A stretch of DNA of 25,486 nucleotides. Origin: Lachnospiraceae bacterium (GTDB taxonomy: Bacteria; Bacillota_A; Clostridia; Lachnospirales; Lachnospiraceae). Of the stretch, positions 12,333 to 25,486 are shown piece by piece. The notes under the pieces were generated by a model. It was not told where the DNA came from and searched no databases. It was given only the letters and a program-made list of their open reading frames with translations. The DNA is taken from assembly GCA_017416055.1 (NCBI GenBank), contig JAFQDI010000080.1, forward strand, positions 1 to 25,486. The letters run 5' to 3'. Position 1 is the first letter of the stretch. The number at the start of each line of letters is the position of its first letter. A program made the position numbers and the translations under genes.

Positions 12333-12341
12333 GGCGAAAAA

Positions 12342-12364
12342 ATATCGGAAACCGATATCGGTTT
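12342..12364. repeat. nested palindromes after degV
   Basis: ATATCGG-AAA-CCGATAT (12342-12358) overlaps a second perfect palindrome, AAACCGATATCGGTTT (12349-12364), so the sequence can fold in two ways. It may be a first, weak degV terminator (TTTT follows) or a protein-binding site. Confidence 0.4.
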
Positions 12365-12373
12365 TAATACAAA

Positions 12374-12400
12374 TGCACCCCTTTTGATGTAAGGGGTGCA
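12374..12400. terminator. bidirectional terminator
   Basis: TGCACCCCTT (12374-12383), 7-nt loop, AAGGGGTGCA (12391-12400), a perfect 10-bp stem. AAGTTATTTT follows on the plus strand (degV side) and TTTGTATTAAAA on the minus strand (mini-ORF side). Confidence 0.75.
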
Positions 12401-12439
12401 AAGTTATTTTAAGGGGTAGAACGTGAAAACTAATCCCAG

Positions 12440-12529
12440 TCAAAAGAGGAATATCCCTGCATCGTCTACTTCCTGGATATTGGTTAATGGAAGTGTAATT
12501 GAAGTTCTATCGTGGGTGTTGAATTTCAT
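12440..12529 (-). CDS. 29-residue mini-ORF, second gene of a small minus-strand unit
   Basis: On the minus strand ATG at 12527-12529 follows GGCGGTGA and reads MKFNTHDRTSITLPLTNIQE and nine more residues, to IFLF and a TGA at 12440-12442. Dropping one T from the TTTT run at the end would give FDWD and a stop, so the true end may have suffered a one-base insertion. Function unknown. It shares a transcript with the mini-ORF at 12549-12656 and ends before the shared terminator. Confidence 0.35.
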   Translation of the reverse strand: MKFNTHDRTSITLPLTNIQEVDDAGIFLF

Positions 12530-12548
12530 AGTATCACCGCCATGCATT

Positions 12549-12656
12549 TTATTCTTTTATTTTGGGTAATCGTACATTATGTACATCATGTAAATATTGT
12601 TCAAATATGTGAAAGAAAGACTCCAGTTCATTAAATTCTCTTTCTATGTTTGTCAT
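12549..12656 (-). CDS. 35-residue mini-ORF, first gene of a small minus-strand unit
   Basis: On the minus strand ATG at 12654-12656 has AGGTGG four bases upstream and lies about 16 nt after the predicted transcription start. The product MTNIEREFNELESFFHIFEQ... is amphipathic and helical, with a TAA at 12549-12551. Promoter, ribosome binding site, coding frame and downstream terminator are all present in under 340 bp, which supports a real small-protein gene. I do not recognise the family. A regulatory peptide or a toxin/antitoxin piece are possible but unproven. Confidence 0.4.
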   Translation of the reverse strand: MTNIEREFNELESFFHIFEQYLHDVHNVRLPKIKE

Positions 12657-12678
12657 AAAACCACCTGCCTTCAAGATA

Positions 12679-12707
12679 ATTATACCCGCAAAAGCAATAT
12701 CTTTCAA
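12679..12707 (-). promoter_or_regulatory. consensus promoter for the mini-ORF unit
   Basis: On the minus strand, TTGAAA (12702-12707) and a perfect TATAAT (12679-12684) with a 17-bp spacer. Confidence 0.8.
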
Positions 12708-12730
12708 TGCTTTGACACCCATCAGTTAAG

Positions 12731-12779
12731 CAGGAAGGTTCTTGAGTTGTGAAAGGTAGAAGCCAAGAACTGCTTCCTG
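12731..12779 (+). other. long imperfect hairpin upstream of the Rpn-like fragment
   Basis: CAGGAAG-G-TTCTTG (12731-12744) pairs with CAAGAA-CTG-CTTCCTG (12764-12779), giving 13 paired bases around a small internal loop and a 19-nt apical loop. It sits just upstream of AAAGGAGGT and ATG 12804, and no T tract follows. It could be a translational control element or the scar of a mobile-element end. Confidence 0.5.
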
Positions 12780-12803
12780 TAAATCAAAAAAGGAGGTAGC
12801 ACG

Positions 12804-13025
12804 ATGACAAGATCAAAAGAGTTTGCTCAAGATCATCCATTGGCAGAAGCGGTGGAAACGGCGATTACATATTGTATTCAAAACGATATTTTGGCAGAAT
12901 TTCTTACGAAACATCGTGCGGAGGTGATGAGTATGAGCATTTTCGAGTATAATCAAGAGCAACATTTCCGCCGGATTGCAACGGAAAATCAGGCAGTTGG
13001 CCGGGAAAAGGGAAGCATGGATTAG
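12804..13025 (+). CDS. stand-alone C-terminal region of an Rpn/PD-(D/E)XK nuclease-family protein
   Basis: The 73-residue ORF matches what I recall of the C-terminal tail of Rpn-type recombination-promoting nucleases common in Lachnospiraceae: a helical LAEAVETAITYCIQNDILAEF followed by LTKHRAEVMSMSIFEYNQE. The N-terminal nuclease domain is missing, yet the ORF has a good ribosome binding site (AAAGGAGGT) and its own ATG. After the TAG at 13023 another frame continues with plausible sequence (LAAKVEEPALFAEELSKATT, ending about 13113), so a frameshift near 13010 has probably cut the original tail. It is either a decaying remnant or a small C-terminal protein of the kind known to be translated from internal starts in E. 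coli rpn genes. Confidence 0.6.
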   Translation: MTRSKEFAQDHPLAEAVETAITYCIQNDILAEFLTKHRAEVMSMSIFEYNQEQHFRRIATENQAVGREKGSMD

Positions 13026-13090
13026 ACTGGCAGCGAAAGTGGAGGAACCGGCTCTGTTTGCAGAGGAACTAAGCAAAGCTACAACTATCA

Positions 13091-13142
13091 AAAAGAGACT
13101 GTCGCTTGGCTAATAATTTAGCCGGTGTGACAGTCTCTCTTT
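13091..13142. terminator. bidirectional terminator between Rpn-like fragment and FAD gene
   Basis: AGAGACTGTC (13094-13103) pairs with GACAGTCTCT (13129-13138), enclosing an inner GGCTAA/TTAGCC stem. CTTTTA follows on the plus strand and CTTTTTGATAG on the minus strand, so it can serve both converging genes. Confidence 0.85.
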
Positions 13143-13172
13143 TATCACATTATTCCATCACGGTCGTGTCGC

Positions 13173-17196: not shown

Positions 17197-18078
17197 ATGG
17201 ATCGGCTTGTGGCATTTTTTGAGGGATACATGAATGTGTCATTTGCAGATATCTGGGTCACAGATGTGGTAGAGATGGCGATTATTGCCTTTCTGCTGTA
17301 TGAGATTATGCTTTGGATCAAAAACACCAGAGTGTGGATATTGTTAAAAGGATTCTTGGTGCTGATTGGTTTTATCATCGTGGCCGCTGTTTTTGAGATG
17401 AACACGATTCTATGGATCGCGGACAAGGTGTTCAATATCGGAATCCTTGCATTGGTGATCATTTTCCAGCCGGAGCTGAGAAAGGCGTTGGAGCAGCTTG
17501 GCCAAAACAATGTGTTCTCGCATTTTCTTCAGAATGGAAACGGAAAGAATCGTCAGGATAAGATGAGCAAGGCTGTGGTGGAGGGAATCGTGCACGCGGC
17601 ATTTGAGATGAGCAAGACCCGCACCGGAGCATTGATCGTATTGGAGAAAGATATTCCGCTGACAGAGTATATTGCGACCGGTATTCCCATCGACGGTGTG
17701 GTGACCAGTCAGTTACTGTTGAATATTTTCGAGCACAACACACCGCTCCATGACGGTGCAGTGATTATCCGAGGAAATCGCGTGGTTTCGGCGACCTGTT
17801 ATCTTCCGTTGTCTGACAGTATGAAGATCAGCAAAGCGTTGGGAACGAGACATCGTGCGGGGTTGGGTATCAGTGAGATCACCGACAGTATTACGGTGAT
17901 TGTGTCTGAGGAGACCGGTTATGTGTCTGCCGCATTGGAGGGAAGATTGGTACGCCACATGAATGCAGAGGGATTGACTGCTCTGCTGATGCAGAATTTG
18001 GTGGAGAGTGTGGAAGAACAGCCCAAGCGCAGACTGCTGAAGGGAAGGCATAAGAATGAGAAAAAGATTGACAAATAA
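17197..18078 (+). CDS. cdaA: diadenylate cyclase CdaA (c-di-AMP synthase)
   Basis: The 293-residue protein has the CdaA architecture: three N-terminal membrane segments (about 27-45, 48-66 and 70-90), a short coiled linker, then a DisA_N cyclase domain. The catalytic DGA motif (LHDGAVII, residues 186-188) and the nucleotide-binding GTRHRA (216-221) are both intact, so it should condense two ATP to c-di-AMP at the membrane. The IFQPELRKALEQLG segment after TM3 is a family hallmark. GGGGAGG supports the ATG. It overlaps cdaR by 23 bases, the usual gene order for its regulator. No glmM follows, unlike many Firmicutes. Confidence 0.97.
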   Translation: MDRLVAFFEGYMNVSFADIWVTDVVEMAIIAFLLYEIMLWIKNTRVWILLKGFLVLIGFIIVAAVFEMNTILWIADKVFNIGILALVIIFQPELRKALEQLGQNNVFSHFLQNGNGKNRQDKMSKAVVEGIVHAAFEMSKTRTGALIVLEKDIPLTEYIATGIPIDGVVTSQLLLNIFEHNTPLHDGAVIIRGNRVVSATCYLPLSDSMKISKALGTRHRAGLGISEITDSITVIVSEETGYVSAALEGRLVRHMNAEGLTALLMQNLVESVEEQPKRRLLKGRHKNEKKIDK

Positions 18079-19480
18079 CTGGGGATTAAAACTGATTGCA
18101 GTCATCGCGGCGGTGATGATCTGGCTGCTGATTATGAATACGAGTGATCCGGTGACGACATTTACCATCAGCGGGATACCGATTGAGTTCCTCAACGAGC
18201 AGAGCGCGATCACGGACAATGAGATGATCTATGAGGTAATCGGTAAAAAGACCGCGACGGTTGAGGTGACAACACGAACCAGAGATAGAGATAAGATTAA
18301 GGCCGGAGACTTTAAGGCGACAGTGAATCTGAACGAGATTTACGGCGTGACCGGAAACGTCGGTATTAATGTACAGTTGGTGAATAACGTTTCACTGGTG
18401 AGAAGCTGGCGACAGACGAATTTCTTTGTCGAGATCAAGACGGAAAAAATCATCAATAAGACATTTGAGGTCGAGGCGGTTCAGGAAGGCCAGATTGAGG
18501 ATGGTTATGTATACCGTCAGTGTACGCTGTCCCAAAATACGGTGACCTTGAGAGGTCCGGAGTCTCAGATCGCCAAAGTTGCTTCGGTCAAGGCGATCGT
18601 GGATGTTTCCCAGAGTTTGGATGATGAGCAGATCTCGGTGAAACTGCGCTATTTCAATGCAAATGGGACTGAACTGAACATCCGAAATCTGGATATTGGC
18701 ACGAATCACGAAACTGTGGATGCTCACATTGTGGTGCAGAAGACCAGTCCGGTGAGCATTGACGTTGTGGTAAAGAACAAAGATAACGTGGCGGAAGGAT
18801 ATCGCTATATCACCTACCGCATCAGCAATCAGTCCATCTCCGTGATCGGAAGCAAACAGTCGGTTGCTGGCCTGGATAAGATACAGATCGAGATGGATGC
18901 CTTTGGCGCGGAGGGAGATATCGTGAAAGAGATTGACCTCACCTCTTATCTGCCTGAAAATGTGAGTGTTGCCGGAGGCAATACGAAGGTTACCGTCACG
19001 CTGGTGGTTGAAGCGGAGGGAACACTGGAACTGGAGGTCCCTGTAAAGAATATCGAGATCATTGGCCGGGACGAGGAAAAGAACTATCTTATCGCGCAAA
19101 AGATGATCAAGGTCAGCATTTTTGGTTTGATGAGTGACTGGGAGAACATCACCAATGAGGACGTTAAGCTCAGTGTAGATGTGAGCGAGCTGGATGAAGG
19201 CGAATACAGCCTTGTCCTTGAGGTAGAGGAGATCGATGGTCTTCAGATTGATGTGCTGGACAAACTGGAAATTACCGTAGAGAGGGTCGAAGAGGAAACC
19301 ACTGAGCCGGAGGAAACTACCGGCGAGGACATGACTGACGACGAGACGACCGACAGTGAGACAGATGAATCTGAGGATGCGACCGAAGTAGGGGCGACGG
19401 AAGCACCGTCGGAAGAAGGAAGCGAAGAGGAGACCGGGGAGGAATCCTTCGAGGAAACGACTGCAGGAGCGGTAGAGTGA
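18056..19480 (+). CDS. cdaR: CdaR-like YbbR-domain regulator of CdaA
   Basis: The 474-residue protein has one N-terminal membrane anchor (about 10-28, LKLIAVIAAVMIWLLIMNT), then an extracytoplasmic chain that appears to hold four YbbR domains. Their typical cores, such as YVYRQCTLSQNTVTLRGPES and YITYRISNQSISVIGS, recur about every 90-95 residues to about residue 405. It ends in an unusual acidic Glu/Thr/Asp tail of about 65 residues. CdaR proteins bind CdaA and adjust its activity from outside the membrane. The tail could contact wall components. The start overlaps the end of cdaA, implying coupled translation. Confidence 0.93.
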   Translation: MRKRLTNNWGLKLIAVIAAVMIWLLIMNTSDPVTTFTISGIPIEFLNEQSAITDNEMIYEVIGKKTATVEVTTRTRDRDKIKAGDFKATVNLNEIYGVTGNVGINVQLVNNVSLVRSWRQTNFFVEIKTEKIINKTFEVEAVQEGQIEDGYVYRQCTLSQNTVTLRGPESQIAKVASVKAIVDVSQSLDDEQISVKLRYFNANGTELNIRNLDIGTNHETVDAHIVVQKTSPVSIDVVVKNKDNVAEGYRYITYRISNQSISVIGSKQSVAGLDKIQIEMDAFGAEGDIVKEIDLTSYLPENVSVAGGNTKVTVTLVVEAEGTLELEVPVKNIEIIGRDEEKNYLIAQKMIKVSIFGLMSDWENITNEDVKLSVDVSELDEGEYSLVLEVEEIDGLQIDVLDKLEITVERVEEETTEPEETTGEDMTDDETTDSETDESEDATEVGATEAPSEEGSEEETGEESFEETTAGAVE

Positions 19481-19505
19481 CCTGCAAAAGAATTGGAGAA
19501 GAAAC

Positions 19506-19769
19506 ATGGTTAAGGGAACAATAACGATTGTCACGCCCGGCGGGCTGCATATGCGGCCGGCAGGAGTGTTGTGTAAGCATGCGACGAAGTATTTATCCAA
19601 AATTGAGTTTAAATACAAGGATTCGATGATCAATGTAAAGAGTGTGCTTAGCGTACTCGGAGCATGTATCTGTGCCGGTGAGGAAGCAGAGCTGATCTGC
19701 ACCGGAACGGACGAGGAAAAGGCGTTTGCGGAGCTGAGTCAGCTGATCGCGGGCGGACTGAGCGAGTAG
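19506..19769 (+). CDS. HPr-family phosphocarrier protein
   Basis: The 87-residue product has the HPr active-site stretch GLHMRPAG with the phosphorylatable His at 15, and NVKSVL with Ser at 46, both at the canonical positions used by EI/PTS and HPr kinase. The motif differs slightly from the common GLHARPA, and the region after Ser46 (SVLGACICAG) lacks the usual MGVMSL. It could therefore be the general PTS carrier or a regulatory paralogue like Crh (which lacks His15, unlike this one). It lies 25 bp after cdaR. No other PTS gene is in the window, so a regulatory link between carbon status and c-di-AMP is a possible but unproven reading. Confidence 0.9.
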   Translation: MVKGTITIVTPGGLHMRPAGVLCKHATKYLSKIEFKYKDSMINVKSVLSVLGACICAGEEAELICTGTDEEKAFAELSQLIAGGLSE

Positions 19770-19787
19770 AAAATGAGGAAATCATAC

Positions 19788-20852
19788 ATGAGCAACTACT
19801 ATGTAAATGAAGAGATCAAAAACTGTGTCCGGGTTTTTTCCGAGGAAGGCAGAGCGGAATATCTTCGGATGGATATGAATGAGAATCCGGAAGGCTTGCC
19901 GAGGGAGTTTGTGGACAGTGTTCTTGCGGAGATAACGCCTGAGATATTAGCGACCTATCCGGAGCCGGGACACTTTTGCAGGAAATATGCAGCACTTTTG
20001 GGTGTGAAGCCCGGACAGATTTGTGCCACCAGTGGTTCGGATACCGCTATCCGATATATTATGGAGACGTTTGTACAAAAAGGAGCAAAGGTTGTGACAG
20101 TAACCCCTACCTTTGAGATGTATCGGGTCTACTGTAACATGTACGGATATGAGCACGTCGGAGTACCTTACAATAGTGAGTTCAAAATCGAGATAGAAGA
20201 CATTCTGAATACCATCGACGACAGAACAGATCTCGTGGTGCTGTTGAATCCGAACAACCCCATCGGAAGAACCTTTACCGAGGGTGAGGTTCGCGCAGTG
20301 GCCGAGAGGGCTGCGCAGTGCGGAGCGGTTATGGTGATCGATGAGGCGTACCACTATTTTTATCCGAATACCTTCATCAGGCTGATTGATGAATACGATC
20401 ACTTGTTATTACTGAGAACGTTTTCTAAGTTGTTTTCGCTGGCCGGATGCCGATTGGGTGCGGTCATCGGCTCAGAGCAGCTGGTAGAATATATCAATCA
20501 CGTCCGCTCCTCCGCGGAGGTAAATACAGTGGCGCTTCTGTTTGGAGAACGTCTGATGGATCATCCGGAGTTGATCGATGAGTTGATCCGAGTCGAGAAA
20601 GAAGGACGAAGATTTCTTTTGGAATAGCTGGAGAAGCACGGCTATACCTGTCATGATCAGGAGGGTAATTTTCTGTTTATCCTGCCGAAGACCGATTCGG
20701 CGAAGGTGGCAGCGCGCTTGAGAGAAGAACACAAAATTCTGATTAAGACTTACGGCAATCCGCTTTTGAGCAAATATATCCGCATCACTACCGGATCCAA
20801 ACGTGTGATGGATAAGTTTCTGAAGGCATTTTTGGCAGCGGACCGCGATTGA
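19788..20852 (+). pseudogene. HisC-like PLP aminotransferase interrupted by an in-frame amber codon
   Basis: Start at ATG 19788 is preferred, with GAGGAA seven bases upstream; ATG 19773 is an alternative. From 19788 the fold-type I PLP enzyme has NPNNP (about 154-158), Asp185 in VIDEAY, the PLP Lys214 in TFSKLFSLAG and Arg222. A TAG at 20625-20627 (codon 280) stops it, but the same frame continues for 74 more residues with perfectly family-like sequence, including the substrate Arg332 in YIRITTG, to TGA 20850-20852. The total of 354 codons is the normal HisC length. CAG to TAG is the simplest lesion. Next to a LicC-like gene, it probably made an amino-alcohol phosphate (as the HisC-like serinol/ethanolamine phosphate enzymes of Campylobacter do) rather than histidinol phosphate. 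Confidence 0.85.
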
Positions 20853-20894: not shown

Positions 20895-21599
20895 ATGCGA
20901 GCAGTGTTAATGGCAGCCGGGGTGGGCAGCCGAATCAGCAGAGAAATTTCCAAACCGAAGAGCCTTTTGGATGTAGGTGATGGAAAGACGTTGATCCGTC
21001 ATACCGTGGAGCTGTTGATGGAACATGGGATCGAAGTGACCATCATCGTGGGATATAAAAAAGAACTGTTCTTTGAAGAATTGGCAGGGTTGCCAGTGAA
21101 CTTTGTGGTAAACCCGTTCTATCGGGTGACGAACAGTGTGGCATCTCTTTGGTTCGCGCGGGATTTTCTGAAGGATGATACTGATTACCTGTTTGGAAAT
21201 GCGGATGTGTTTTTCGAGGAGGAGATTCTAAATCTTCTTTTGGACAGTCCGGAAGAGACGGTTTTGCTGTCCGATACAAGACGTGCGCTGGAGGGAGATT
21301 ATCTGTTTGGCCTTGAGGACGGATATATCCGTAAATACGGAAAGGAACTTCCGGCGGAGGATCGCGACTGTGAGTATGTGGGCTTTGGAAAAGTGAAGAG
21401 CTCTTACATGAAGCGCTTCAAAGAGATTCTGGAACAGATGGTGGACGAGGGCAACTACCAAACCTGGTGGGAAGTGATCTTGTACGATCATTGCTTGGAG
21501 CAGCAGGTTCGGGCGCTTGATGTGGCACCGTATTTCTGGTCTGAGATTGATTACATCGAAGACTATATGAAAATCGTGAACTACACGAAAAAGCAGTGA
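20895..21599 (+). CDS. LicC-like nucleotidyltransferase
   Basis: The 234-residue sugar-nucleotidyltransferase-fold enzyme opens with AVLMAAGVGSRISRE and KPKSLL (Lys22), the NTP-binding loop. A metal-binding Asp follows in GNADVFF (about residue 98) and a C-terminal EIDYIEDY. This pattern is that of LicC, the CTP:phosphocholine cytidylyltransferase group, whose members also activate phosphoethanolamine, serinol phosphate or aminoethylphosphonate. Together with the PLP enzyme gene directly before it, I infer a CDP-activated amino-alcohol donor for decorating a surface polymer. TTGGAGGAAG supports the ATG. The transferase that would use the donor is not obvious in the window. Confidence 0.85.
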   Translation: MRAVLMAAGVGSRISREISKPKSLLDVGDGKTLIRHTVELLMEHGIEVTIIVGYKKELFFEELAGLPVNFVVNPFYRVTNSVASLWFARDFLKDDTDYLFGNADVFFEEEILNLLLDSPEETVLLSDTRRALEGDYLFGLEDGYIRKYGKELPAEDRDCEYVGFGKVKSSYMKRFKEILEQMVDEGNYQTWWEVILYDHCLEQQVRALDVAPYFWSEIDYIEDYMKIVNYTKKQ

Positions 21600-21656
21600 A
21601 TAGCCTCAGAGCGAATGGGGTTTGAGGCCGGAGATAACAATAGAGTGGGGTGTGAA

Positions 21657-22661
21657 ATGGTTGTAGCATATGCGTCCAATGACGGGTACGCCAGACATCT
21701 GGCGACCAGCATGTGTTCTCTGTTTGATCGAAATCGGGCAGAGGAGACGATACGTGTCTATATTTTATCGAATCAGCTGTCAAAAGAACAGATCGCGAAG
21801 CTTGAGCGTATCGCGGATCAATATGGCAGAGAGTTGGTTGTGCTCGAGTTGGGGGATGTGCGCAGCCGTTTTCCTTACGAGATCGATACCAGAGGTTTTG
21901 ATGTCAGCGCACTGAGCCGATTTTTCATGGCAGAGATGATTCCGTCATCAGAGCAGCGCATTCTATATCTGGACTGTGACACTGTTGTGTGCGATTCACT
22001 GTCTGAGTTGTGGGAGACGAGCTTGGAGGGATATGCGATCGCTGCGGTGGCTGAGCCCACTGTCGGAATGAAGATCAAGGAACAGATCGATCTGGAAAAA
22101 GAAGAGATTTATATTAATTCAGGCGTTTTACTGATCAACCTGGCATACTGGCGACAGGAAAATGTCCAGGCAGAGTTGATCGAATTTTATCGTAAGAAGG
22201 ACGGAAGACTGTTTGCTTGCGATCAGGACACATTAAACGGTGCGCTTCAGGGCAGGATTAAATTGTTGGAGCCGAGATATAATTTTTATACGACGCTTCG
22301 CTATTTCCCTTATTCGTCGCTGGTTTTGAGAACTAACGAATATGCGGTCGTTCCCGCAGAGCAGCTGCGCAAGGCGAAGAAAAATCCCGCGATCCTTCAT
22401 TTTTTGGGAGATGAGCGCCCTTGGAAGAGGGGGAATCTGAACCCTTATCGCAAATGGTATGAGAAGTATCTGGAAATGACACCCTACGCAGGGACACCGA
22501 AGGAGAAAGGACAGGAGCTTTATCTGTTTTTCTTCCATATGCTGGAGTGGATCACGATGATCTGCCCGGAATTTCGGTTCGCAGTCAGCGATGGTTTAGG
22601 GATGTGGGTGATCGACAGAAGAAGTCGAAAGAGAAAAAAACGCAGCAGCAAGGATAGATGA
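21657..22661 (+). CDS. glycosyltransferase family 8 protein
   Basis: I start at ATG 21657 (MVVAYASNDGYARHL), the normal beginning for the family; the frame is open from ATG 21615 without a ribosome binding site. The 334-residue retaining transferase has the metal-binding DCD (106-108, YLDCDTVV), NSGVLLINL (154-162), CDQD (188-191) and the C-terminal HFLGDERPWK (248-257), all hallmarks of GT8. The donor is probably UDP-glucose or UDP-galactose. It is soluble with a basic C-terminus (RRSRKRKKRSSK) that may touch the membrane. It lies in the glycan run and ends 10 bp before the next transferase. Confidence 0.9.
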   Translation: MVVAYASNDGYARHLATSMCSLFDRNRAEETIRVYILSNQLSKEQIAKLERIADQYGRELVVLELGDVRSRFPYEIDTRGFDVSALSRFFMAEMIPSSEQRILYLDCDTVVCDSLSELWETSLEGYAIAAVAEPTVGMKIKEQIDLEKEEIYINSGVLLINLAYWRQENVQAELIEFYRKKDGRLFACDQDTLNGALQGRIKLLEPRYNFYTTLRYFPYSSLVLRTNEYAVVPAEQLRKAKKNPAILHFLGDERPWKRGNLNPYRKWYEKYLEMTPYAGTPKEKGQELYLFFFHMLEWITMICPEFRFAVSDGLGMWVIDRRSRKRKKRSSKDR

Positions 22662-22671
22662 GAGGTTTGTT

Positions 22672-23694
22672 ATGGCGTCGGTGGATGTGATCATTCCGAT
22701 TTATCACCCGGATGAAAAAGTAAATAGACTGCTGACGGCATTGAAGACGCAGACGCTTACACCGGAACGGATTATTCTAGTGCATACCGGTGAGGTCCGG
22801 AAAGATGAACCGGAGTATGAGGCGGATGCGGTGATTCGTTGTGACGAGAATGGAAAGCCGATGAAAAACTGTCCGTCGGAAGCGAAGAAGATCCTTTGTG
22901 AGATACCGGAGGAGCGATTTGATCACGGTGGGACCCGCAATTTGGGGGCATCGTTTTCCCGGGCAGAAGTGATGGTGTTTATGACGCAGGACGCGGTACC
23001 GGCGGATGATCGGCTACTGGAGGTGTTGGTCCGGGCGGTTACCGACGGTTCTGTCGGCGCAGATGGAACCAACGGGAAACTTTCCCGAAATGATGCGGTC
23101 ACTGTGGCAGCAGCTTATGCCCGCCAGCTCCCGTATGAGGATTGTCGGGCGGTTGAGCGGTATATCCGGGAGTTCAATTACCCGGAAGGCAGTGAGCTTC
23201 GCACGGCGAAGGACATTCCGATCCGAGGAATCAAGGCTTTCTGCAACTCCAATGTGTGTTCAGCCTATCGCAGAGATGTGTTTGACCGGCTGGGCGGGTT
23301 TGCGGAAAAAACCATATTTAATGAGGATATGTTGTTCGGTGCGGCTGCGATACTTGGCGGGTACGGAGTGGGTTATGCTGCCGATGCGAAAGTGTATCAT
23401 TCCCACAATCTGGGGCTTTCGGATCAGTTTCACCGCAATTTTGACAATGCAGTCTCTCAGGCGGAACACCCGGAAGTGTTTGCGGCGGTTTCCTCCGAGA
23501 AAGAGGGAATGAAGCTGGTGAAGTATTGTCTGTCCCGGATGCGGGAGGATGGCAGACTTTATCTGGCACCTTACTTTATGTTGAATTGTGCATGCCGATA
23601 TGCAGGATTTTTCCTGGGCAAACGGTTTAGGAAGCTGCCGGGTTGGTTAGTGCGGGCATGTAGTCTGAACAAGAGGTATTGGGATGTTCGTTAA
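22672..23694 (+). CDS. glycosyltransferase family 2 protein (rhamnosyltransferase-like)
   Basis: The 340-residue GT-A enzyme opens with VDVIIPIYHPDEKV, then FDHGGTRNLGA (about 83-93), and has the nucleotide-sugar/metal motif TQDA (105-108) in place of a plain DxD. The catalytic-base acid lies in FNEDMLFG. HGGTRN plus TQDA is typical of GT2 enzymes annotated as rhamnosyltransferases in polysaccharide clusters; the actual sugar is not known. AGAGG precedes the ATG. It is part of the surface-polymer gene run. Confidence 0.87.
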   Translation: MASVDVIIPIYHPDEKVNRLLTALKTQTLTPERIILVHTGEVRKDEPEYEADAVIRCDENGKPMKNCPSEAKKILCEIPEERFDHGGTRNLGASFSRAEVMVFMTQDAVPADDRLLEVLVRAVTDGSVGADGTNGKLSRNDAVTVAAAYARQLPYEDCRAVERYIREFNYPEGSELRTAKDIPIRGIKAFCNSNVCSAYRRDVFDRLGGFAEKTIFNEDMLFGAAAILGGYGVGYAADAKVYHSHNLGLSDQFHRNFDNAVSQAEHPEVFAAVSSEKEGMKLVKYCLSRMREDGRLYLAPYFMLNCACRYAGFFLGKRFRKLPGWLVRACSLNKRYWDVR

Positions 23695-23733
23695 TCGGAT
23701 AAATTATTGAGTGAAAGGTACAGGGTAATCGAG

Positions 23734-24426
23734 TTGGCAAAGGTACTGGTTATCATTCCTGCATATAATGAGGCGGAAAATATCGAACGAGTCGTGAAGA
23801 GCCTTGAGAACGCAGGAGATTGGGATTATGTGATCATCAATGACGGATCGGTGGATGACACGGCGAAGATCTGCAGACAAAAGCATTACAATCTGATCGA
23901 TCTTCCGGTAAACTTAGGTTTGATGGGTGCATTTCAGACCGGTCTGCGCTACGCATACGAAAACGGATATGATTATGCGCTTCAGTTTGATGGAGACGGC
24001 CAGCATCAGCCGGAATATATTGACGGAATGGTGGAATTGGCGACAACGGAAAATCTGGATATTGTGATCGGATCTCGGTTCGTGACGGAGAAGAAGCCGT
24101 TTACGCCACGCATGATGGGAAGTAGAGTGATCGGGGCGCTGATTTGGATGACAACCGGAAAGAAGATCAATGACCCTACGTCCGGAATGAGACTGTTTGG
24201 CAGAGACGTGATTAAAAAAATGGCCTACGACTCAAGCTTCGCTCCGGAGCCGGAAACCGTGTCCTACTTTTTGAAGTGTGGGCACACCGTAAAAGAATAT
24301 CAGGTGACGATGAAGGAGAGAGAGGCCGGGGAGAGCTATCTGAACTTTGCCAACTCTGTCAAGTACATGAGTGTGAGGTGCTTCTCCATTCTGATTCTTC
24401 AGTTGCTGAGAAAGAGGGGAAAGTGA
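23734..24426 (+). CDS. DPM1/GtrB-like GT2 (polyprenyl-phosphate glycosyltransferase)
   Basis: I place the start at TTG 23734 (MAKVLVIIPAYNEAEN), which fits family N-termini; TTG 23707 would add nine residues. The enzyme has IINDGSVDDT (34-43), the metal motif DGDGQHQ (86-92), IGSRF and NDPTSGMRLF, the standard pattern of dolichol/undecaprenyl-phosphate hexose synthases. There are no large membrane segments, only a hydrophobic C-terminal patch (CFSILILQLL). It should charge undecaprenyl phosphate with a sugar at the cytosolic face. The DUF2304 gene starts one base after its stop, the usual partner arrangement. Confidence 0.9.
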   Translation: MAKVLVIIPAYNEAENIERVVKSLENAGDWDYVIINDGSVDDTAKICRQKHYNLIDLPVNLGLMGAFQTGLRYAYENGYDYALQFDGDGQHQPEYIDGMVELATTENLDIVIGSRFVTEKKPFTPRMMGSRVIGALIWMTTGKKINDPTSGMRLFGRDVIKKMAYDSSFAPEPETVSYFLKCGHTVKEYQVTMKEREAGESYLNFANSVKYMSVRCFSILILQLLRKRGK

Positions 24427-24427
24427 T

Positions 24428-24766
24428 ATGTCGCTGACGTTGAGAATCATTTTGATTATTGCTTGTGTGTTTACGCTGGTTTATATCCGGGGCAAAATCA
24501 AAAAATCAAAATTCAAGGCAGAAGAGTCCATGTTTTGGCTAACCTTTGTGTCGCTTCTGCTACTGATCAGCATCTTCCCTCAAATTTTGACACTGATTGC
24601 CCGGGTTTTGGGAATCCAGTCGGAAGTGAACTGTATCTTCATGATCATCATTTTCCTGCTGTTGATTAAAAACTTTTTGCTGTCAAGGCAGCTGTCCGAT
24701 TTAGATGACAAGGTAAAGAAATTGGTGCAGTCCACCGCGCTTCGGGATAAGCAGAAAGAAGAGTGA
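24428..24766 (+). CDS. DUF2304 small membrane protein
   Basis: The 112-residue product has three hydrophobic segments (about 5-22, 36-54 and 66-84) and a charged C-terminal coil (QLSDLDDKVKKLVQ), matching DUF2304. This family is almost always encoded directly after a DPM1/GtrB-like GT2, as here, and probably tethers the enzyme to the membrane or helps flip its lipid-linked product. AGAGGGGAAAG in the end of the previous gene serves as the ribosome binding site. Confidence 0.88.
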   Translation: MSLTLRIILIIACVFTLVYIRGKIKKSKFKAEESMFWLTFVSLLLLISIFPQILTLIARVLGIQSEVNCIFMIIIFLLLIKNFLLSRQLSDLDDKVKKLVQSTALRDKQKEE

Positions 24767-24789
24767 CCGGGACGGAGCAGGAGAACGCT

Positions 24790-25486
24790 ATGTACACAGA
24801 GAAAGACCATACCTTCGTAGTATGTGCGTATAAGGAGAGCCAGTATCTTGAGGAAGTAGTTCGCTCGTTGCGTGCACAGACGGTAAAAAGCCGTATTTTG
24901 GTTTCCACATCGACACCGAATGCTTGGATTGAGGCGATATGTGCGAAATATGAGCTTCCACTGGTGGTCAATCGGGGGGAATCCTCCATCGCCAGAGACT
25001 GGAATTTCGGATACGATGCGGCAAAGACACCGCTGGTGACGATTGCCCATCAGGATGATATTTATGAGCCGGATTTTTTAAGCCGGACGATAGATGCGCT
25101 GAACCAGCATCAAAATGAGCGGGTACAAATTGCGTTTACGGATTATTACGAACTGAAGAACGGACGGAAGGTGGAGAAGAACCGACTGCTTACCATCAAG
25201 AGGATCTTGCTGTTCCCGTTGCGTTTGAGTCGGTTGGGTCGGTATTCTTTTATTAAGCGAAGAGTACTTTCTCTGGGAAATCCTATTTGCTGTCCGTCAG
25301 TGACTCTGGTGAAGGAGCATCTGAGCCCCGGCGTTTTCGATGTGCAGTATGTGAATGGCTGTGATTATAAGACTTGGGCCGGCCTTGCCGGAAAGAAAGG
25401 TATGTTTTTATATATCCCCAAGCGGTTGATGGGGCACCGTATTCATGCTGAGTCCACGACGACGAAAAATGTTGCGGACGGAACCA
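24790..25486 (+). CDS. glycosyltransferase family 2 protein, 5' part (runs off the window)
   Basis: ATG 24790 follows GGAGCAGGAG and opens a frame with no stop to the right edge, about 232 residues. It reads MYTEKDHTFVVCAYKESQYL, then SSIARDWNFGYDAAKT (about 67-82) and the metal-binding motif HQDDIY (about 88-93), clear GT2 features. A later RIHAEST fits the C-terminal His region of this subgroup. It continues the glycan gene run, 23 bp after the DUF2304 stop. The C-terminus and exact subgroup are outside the window. Confidence 0.88.
   Translation, partial: MYTEKDHTFVVCAYKESQYLEEVVRSLRAQTVKSRILVSTSTPNAWIEAICAKYELPLVVNRGESSIARDWNFGYDAAKTPLVTIAHQDDIYEPDFLSRTIDALNQHQNERVQIAFTDYYELKNGRKVEKNRLLTIKRILLFPLRLSRLGRYSFIKRRVLSLGNPICCPSVTLVKEHLSPGVFDVQYVNGCDYKTWAGLAGKKGMFLYIPKRLMGHRIHAESTTTKNVADGT

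Follow-up and report, generated by a model that had tools for sequence, protein, structure and literature searches.

A probable recent nonsense allele of a HisC-like PLP enzyme gene in a Lachnospiraceae glycan operon

Does an amber codon inside an apparently sound enzyme gene mark the loss of a function, a means of regulation, or an error in the sequence? The question is raised by a stretch of 25,486 nucleotides, here called the window, from contig JAFQDI010000080.1 of a Lachnospiraceae bacterium assembly (GCA_017416055.1). A reading frame for a HisC-like PLP enzyme runs there from ATG 19788 to TGA 20850-20852, with TAG at 20625-20627 (codon 280) as its sole interruption. The frame (19788-20852) comprises 279 codons, the stop and 74 further codons, and an intact product would have 354 residues. 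Its start is backed by a GAGG Shine-Dalgarno sequence and by an intact 354-residue protein, P0001, that begins at the same residue.

19775..19778, forward strand: Shine-Dalgarno sequence GAGG, 9 nt 5' of ATG 19788
19788..20624, forward strand: pre-stop part of a HisC-like fold-type I PLP enzyme, 279 codons, including the FSK lysine; assigned by profile, relatives and model
20625..20627, forward strand: in-frame TAG, codon 280, near the end of helix 261-283 in the P0001 model
20628..20852, forward strand: tail of the PLP enzyme, 74 codons and TGA, forming the C-terminal small domain; Arg of YIRITTG at 20781-20783

Frame, homology and intact relatives bear out the earlier note on this DNA, which had described a HisC-like PLP frame split by this TAG and continuing for 74 family-like residues, the YIRITTG Arg among them, to a normal total length, that of P0001. 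In profile searches the part before the stop matches Aminotran_1_2 (E 5.6e-37) and TIGR01141 (E 4.2e-60) by itself, and the 74-residue tail by itself matches positions 283-346 of TIGR01141 (E 2.3e-7) and Aminotran_1_2 (E 3.8e-4). The length of the open tail is weak evidence, because 63 of 3000 simulated 222-base stretches were also without an in-frame stop; homology is the proof. Nor is the tail plausible as a separate gene, since its first in-frame start codon, GTG at 20706, lies 78 bases in and nowhere near the stop, which speaks against an independent downstream ORF.

The coding sequence around the stop has little other damage. Among columns conserved in at least 90% of the best 120 relatives (of 2552 proteins found with the part before the stop), the window copy keeps 17 of 17 in the tail and 97 of 104 up to the stop, where five of the seven departures precede the true start and two are real. 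Compared with the three nearest genome loci (L001-L003), the pre-stop part has a dN of 0.12-0.13 and the tail one of 0.18-0.23, and dS exceeds 1.3 or is saturated. Against 22 relatives the window copy averages 83.4% identity before the stop and 70.1% after it, and P0001 82.3% and 71.3%. At the seven sites substituted between these two, the window carries the majority residue at four, with one tie, one site at which neither does and one, residue 288, at which P0001 does; it is this retention of the majority residue at four of seven that argues for little other damage. Residue 288 of the window differs from that of 21 of 23 relatives, a point against a recent null allele. The tail is not decayed, in agreement with an earlier claim, and a recent stop or a sequencing or assembly error therefore fits.

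Intact relatives are close at hand. The nearest protein among those listed, P0001, is identical upstream of the stop at 273 of 279 residues and downstream of it at 73 of 74. The 24 closest listed proteins have E (22) or Q (2) in the stop column and never a stop, a count biased by a protein database that favours unbroken frames and is clustered at 90% identity. Over the best 120 of 2552 proteins the column holds E in 64, many other residues and one gap. P0052 (189 residues, 83% identical over its part) is not counted as a second truncated copy, as it breaks at DEAYH, possibly at a contig end. The comparison with sister strains that had been proposed earlier gives the same picture: L001-L003, from three genomes of one genus in records named Lachnospiraceae bacterium, share 80-83% protein identity with the window and all three carry a sense codon there. 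More widely, we compared the best 80 of 173 loci confirmed in genome contigs, some of which share a genome. The gene reaches a stop at the normal place in 75 (including L001, and L056, which begins at a contig start), is cut by a contig end in three (L016, L035 and L070) and is disrupted in two. At a threshold of E<=1e-100, below which a badly broken copy could fall, the gene was found in 18 of 250 genomes of the same family, with an internal stop in 0 of 18. The two disrupted copies are distant relatives with lesions of their own, an in-frame TAA in the tail at L019:2748 and a frameshift at L064:10001-10912.

These comparisons bear on the main rival to a genuine stop, namely that the gene is truly intact and that the TAG comes from a wrong consensus base or from a metagenome assembly that merged strain variants into a chimera. 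A near-identical intact protein exists, the remainder of the gene is undamaged, and L019 and L064 each have one disruption in a gene that is clean elsewhere, as can happen in draft assemblies. Against this, single wrong bases that create a stop are rare in short-read consensus, and most of the other Pfam-matched genes in the window cover their profile nearly end to end. We regard such an error as a possible but doubtful explanation.

What would the stop cost the enzyme? A model of P0001 built from 40 aligned sequences (pLDDT 91.8, pTM 0.89) matches HisC and CobD structures and places the protein in the HisC-CobD group of fold-type I PLP enzymes. Residue 280 lies in helix 261-283, and beyond the helix come strands 287-290, 295-299 and 331-334 and helices 304-315 and 338-351. 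The FSK lysine, which we take to be the PLP lysine, occupies a column nearly invariant in 40 relatives and is present in the window copy. Arg332, the YIRITTG Arg, is located in the C-terminal small domain and is invariant in the 40 aligned sequences; by analogy with the HisC family, it presumably binds the substrate carboxylate. The truncated product should be inactive, because the stop removes the small domain together with this Arg.

Resemblance to HisC (TIGR01141) extends to the fold, and the best PDB sequence and Foldseek matches of P0001 are HisC, but with 244.7-256.5 bits the orthologues in the three sisters stay under the cut-off of 276.55. Taken singly, the window's two parts fall short of that cut-off as well (203.5 bits before the stop, 30 bits for the tail). 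A separate HisC above it (297-298 bits) is present in sister genomes G001 and G003 and was not found in G002 (2.1 Mb). The orthologue scores in all three sisters and the separate HisC in two of them speak against a housekeeping HisC, and with the latter, loss of the PLP enzyme would be tolerable.

The gene stands in an operon whose members help to interpret the stop:

17197..18078, forward strand: diadenylate cyclase CdaA, by profile
18056..19480, forward strand: YbbR-domain protein, by profile
19506..19769, forward strand: HPr family phosphocarrier, by profile; stop codon TAG, in frame with the PLP gene
20895..21599, forward strand: LicC/PntC-like cytidylyltransferase (NTP), by profile and PDB match; motif GVGSR-x7-PK
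21600..21656, forward strand: junction, by locus comparison; LicD lies here in sister genome G001, none in the window
21657..22661, forward strand: GT8 glycosyltransferase, by profile; start 21657 likelier than 21615
22672..23694, forward strand: GT2 glycosyltransferase (a), by profile; immediately preceded in G001 by a flippase-like gene that the window lacks
23707..24426, forward strand: GT2 glycosyltransferase (b), polyprenyl-phosphate type, by profile
24428..24766, forward strand: DUF2304 protein, by profile
24763..25485, forward strand: GT2 glycosyltransferase (c), by profile, cut by the window end

The later GT8 start is preferred because TGGGGTGTGAAATG, 14 bases ending in the start codon, is identical in G001. 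In the window, as in L001-L003, the CdaA-YbbR-HPr genes (17197-19769) lie directly 5' of the PLP-cytidylyltransferase pair.

Could the TAG be read through? A suppressor tRNA, pyrrolysine or a leaky UAG would yield some full-length enzyme, and the stop would just lower expression. The clean tail and the purifying selection across the clade, seen in the dN and dS values above, would suit this, and it has been proposed, with conservation cited in support, that certain in-frame stops within low-dN/dS bacterial genes are read through and may act as regulators (PMC7918605). An equally clean tail is, however, expected of a recent null allele, and a stop found in none of the 24 closest listed proteins and none of the three sister loci is not a conserved device. 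TAG closes five of the 24 tabulated frames in the window, those of the pre-stop part of the PLP enzyme, a transporter, TIM, an FAD oxidoreductase and HPr, the last four being Pfam-supported genes; read-through past the transporter, TIM and FAD stops would add 26, 2 and 4 residues. In the stretch 19506-19790, only AAA separates the TAG of HPr from an upstream ATG (19773) that is in phase with the PLP frame, and efficient amber suppression would therefore join HPr to the PLP enzyme. The HPr genes of L001, L002 and L003 end in TAA, TGA and TGA, and programmed read-through was dropped as a lead, neither the stop nor the HPr-TAG arrangement being common to the three sister loci. PylS was not found above the cut-off in any of the three sister genomes, where weak matches lay far below it, and no tRNA was found within the 25.5-kb window. 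Amber recoding, pyrrolysine included, which had been raised as an explanation, is unsupported, TAG being the terminator of other conserved genes in the window, and read-through of codon 280 is very unlikely.

A reversible switch is less probable still. Phase variation, also suggested before, would turn the enzyme on and off, as do the poly-G tracts that make Cj1437 of Campylobacter jejuni, a functional analogue, phase variable (PMC8437040). No tandem repeat and no homopolymer longer than six was found in the gene. One 12-base inverted pair (20139-20150 and 21325-21336, 92% complementary) flanks the stop on both sides, but it is short, imperfect and judged to be due to chance, and an inversion would neither create nor erase a point stop. 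Nor is a substitution a lesion of the switching kind, and we give this possibility almost no weight.

The operon itself was said to be otherwise intact, a description that does not hold. Eight of the best 80 loci (L002, L047, L049, L051, L053, L054, L058 and L071) share the PLP, NTP, GT2a, GT2b and DUF2304 genes with the window. All eight have LicD and all eight have a flippase-like protein of a family we call X/Y, although seven of these operons are closely related, with X genes 62-78% identical, and the eight are not independent cases. The X/Y protein, with nine hydrophobic segments in each of two members examined and no Pfam match, is one that we take to resemble a polysaccharide flippase. 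Neither LicD, sought by iterated profile and locus comparison, nor the flippase-like gene was found in the 25.5-kb window. In G001, LicD lies between the NTP and GT8 genes and Y between GT8 and GT2a. In G003, contigs break off within both genes: 49 N-terminal residues of LicD remain after NTP, and 61 C-terminal residues of Y precede GT2a; G002, whose contig ends inside NTP, was left out of this comparison. Both places are closed in the window (21600-22672), where GT8 and GT2a follow directly, and no clear deletion scar was seen in the NTP-GT8 junction when aligned to the two intergenic stretches of G001. A second LicD lies about 26 kb downstream of the first in G001, and both the missing LicD and the flippase-like gene may lie beyond 25486 in the source genome.

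The absence of these genes is an independent sign of module loss and counts against a sequencing or assembly error. With LicD and the flippase-like gene, both present in sister operons, missing from the window as well, the source lineage is probably losing the decoration. Pointing the other way, the cytidylyltransferase gene keeps an open frame, with 87% identity to the L002 and L003 copies. As to the earlier expectation that loss of the enzyme would leave this cytidylyltransferase idle, the cytidylyltransferase may already have been without a local partner, the LicD and flippase-like genes being absent.

LicD is by no means present in every locus, which weighs against its absence as a sign of loss: pairs of PLP and NTP genes without LicD occur elsewhere, in L004 and L056; L005 is too short to judge. 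A DUF1919 protein, a possible alternative transferase, is encoded 3' of the PLP-cytidylyltransferase pair in both (L004:11902-12543 and L056:1634-2335).

Other parts of the window were also surveyed. Scans of viral contigs confirmed no relative, plasmids gave no match and phages a single 47-base match in one record, leaving a viral or plasmid origin unsupported. No RNA family was found in the window at the gathering threshold. Between DegV and the FAD oxidoreductase, about 840 bases (12333-13172) hold short frames only, and a 73-residue frame among them (12804-13025), without a Pfam match, looks to us like a transposase-nuclease remnant.

Which reaction the intact enzyme catalyzed may be approached through its neighbors. 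The NTP gene, a predicted cytidylyltransferase, carries GVGSR-ISREISK-PK, in keeping with the consensus GXG(T/S)RX4-8PK (PMC6697681), and its nearest PDB match is LicC (1jyk), PntC (6pd1) being second at nearly the same score. The pairing recurs. In the 66 of the best 80 loci with a callable downstream neighbor, the gene directly 3' of the PLP gene matches CTP_transf_like in 33, GFO_IDH_MocA in 33, NTP_transf_3 in 17, IspD in 14 and NTP_transferase in 10, where Pfam matches may overlap in one protein; the first two lie in one protein in both examples scanned singly, L006 and L015. The gene upstream matches LicD in 16 of 72, and 41 of the best 80 loci contain a LicD-like gene by iterated profile, within up to 10 kb on each side. 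Downstream cytidylyltransferases of two unrelated folds, with LicD in 41 of 80 loci, support the prediction that the PLP product is activated as a CDP derivative. The recurrent pairing thus lends support to the earlier CDP-amino-alcohol reading, with the substrate itself putative. The fusion in L006:3955-5271 and L015:11093-12439 is of a TagD-like cytidylyltransferase to a Gfo/Idh oxidoreductase domain.

Three known systems offer analogies. Cj1437 and Cj1436 of C. jejuni likewise supply an amino-alcohol phosphate in a surface-glycan cluster, Cj1437 forming serinol phosphate by transamination of DHAP and Cj1436 ethanolamine phosphate by decarboxylation of serine phosphate (PMC11800397); as described, their product is joined by ATP-dependent amidation rather than CDP activation, and the likeness drawn here is one of function. 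By this analogy, a small amino-alcohol phosphate is the probable product of the intact enzyme, be it serinol phosphate, ethanolamine phosphate or another. The LicC/LicD phosphocholine pathway shares the LicC-like protein and, in sister operons, LicD, but here the PLP enzyme replaces choline kinase beside the LicC-like gene and the window is without LicD. PntC, a phosphonate cytidylyltransferase-transaminase, also combines a cytidylyltransferase with a PLP enzyme (PMC6697681), but its partner domain is an aminotransferase of class V by its PDB name, whereas the window's partner is HisC-like. A phosphonate route is unlikely, PEP mutase being found in none of the three sister genomes by a search that lacks a positive control (0 of 14 control genomes above the cut-off).

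Taken together, the evidence leads us to judge it probable that the TAG marks a nonsense (null) allele of recent origin, one that is probably tolerated because the transferase of the decoration module has gone. Null alleles of this age are common among accessory surface-glycan genes. The intact PLP enzyme would make an amino-alcohol phosphate, as Cj1437 or Cj1436 does, the neighboring cytidylyltransferase would activate it with CTP, and LicD, to go by gene order, would attach the CDP-activated group to a glycan in sister species. TAG at codon 280 would cut off the small domain with the substrate Arg and inactivate the enzyme, and in a module that by then presumably lacked LicD and the flippase-like gene this loss would be tolerated, in a lineage related to uncultured Lachnospiraceae.

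Beyond this locus, we tentatively propose, at less than even confidence, a widespread pathway, mainly in gut bacteria, in which the HisC-like PLP family supplies an amino-alcohol phosphate that would be CDP-activated by cytidylyltransferases of two folds (LicC/IspD-like, or TagD-like fused to Gfo/Idh) and passed to glycans by LicD, the window being a decaying copy. Judged from listings of the open-access literature, we found no paper that combines a HisC-like enzyme with a cytidylyltransferase and LicD. The stop codon by itself is an ordinary event and matters little. That the PLP enzyme recurs together with LicD and with cytidylyltransferases of two folds points to a possible route to CDP-amino-alcohols, of which, if the stop is confirmed by reads, the window would be a natural loss-of-function case.
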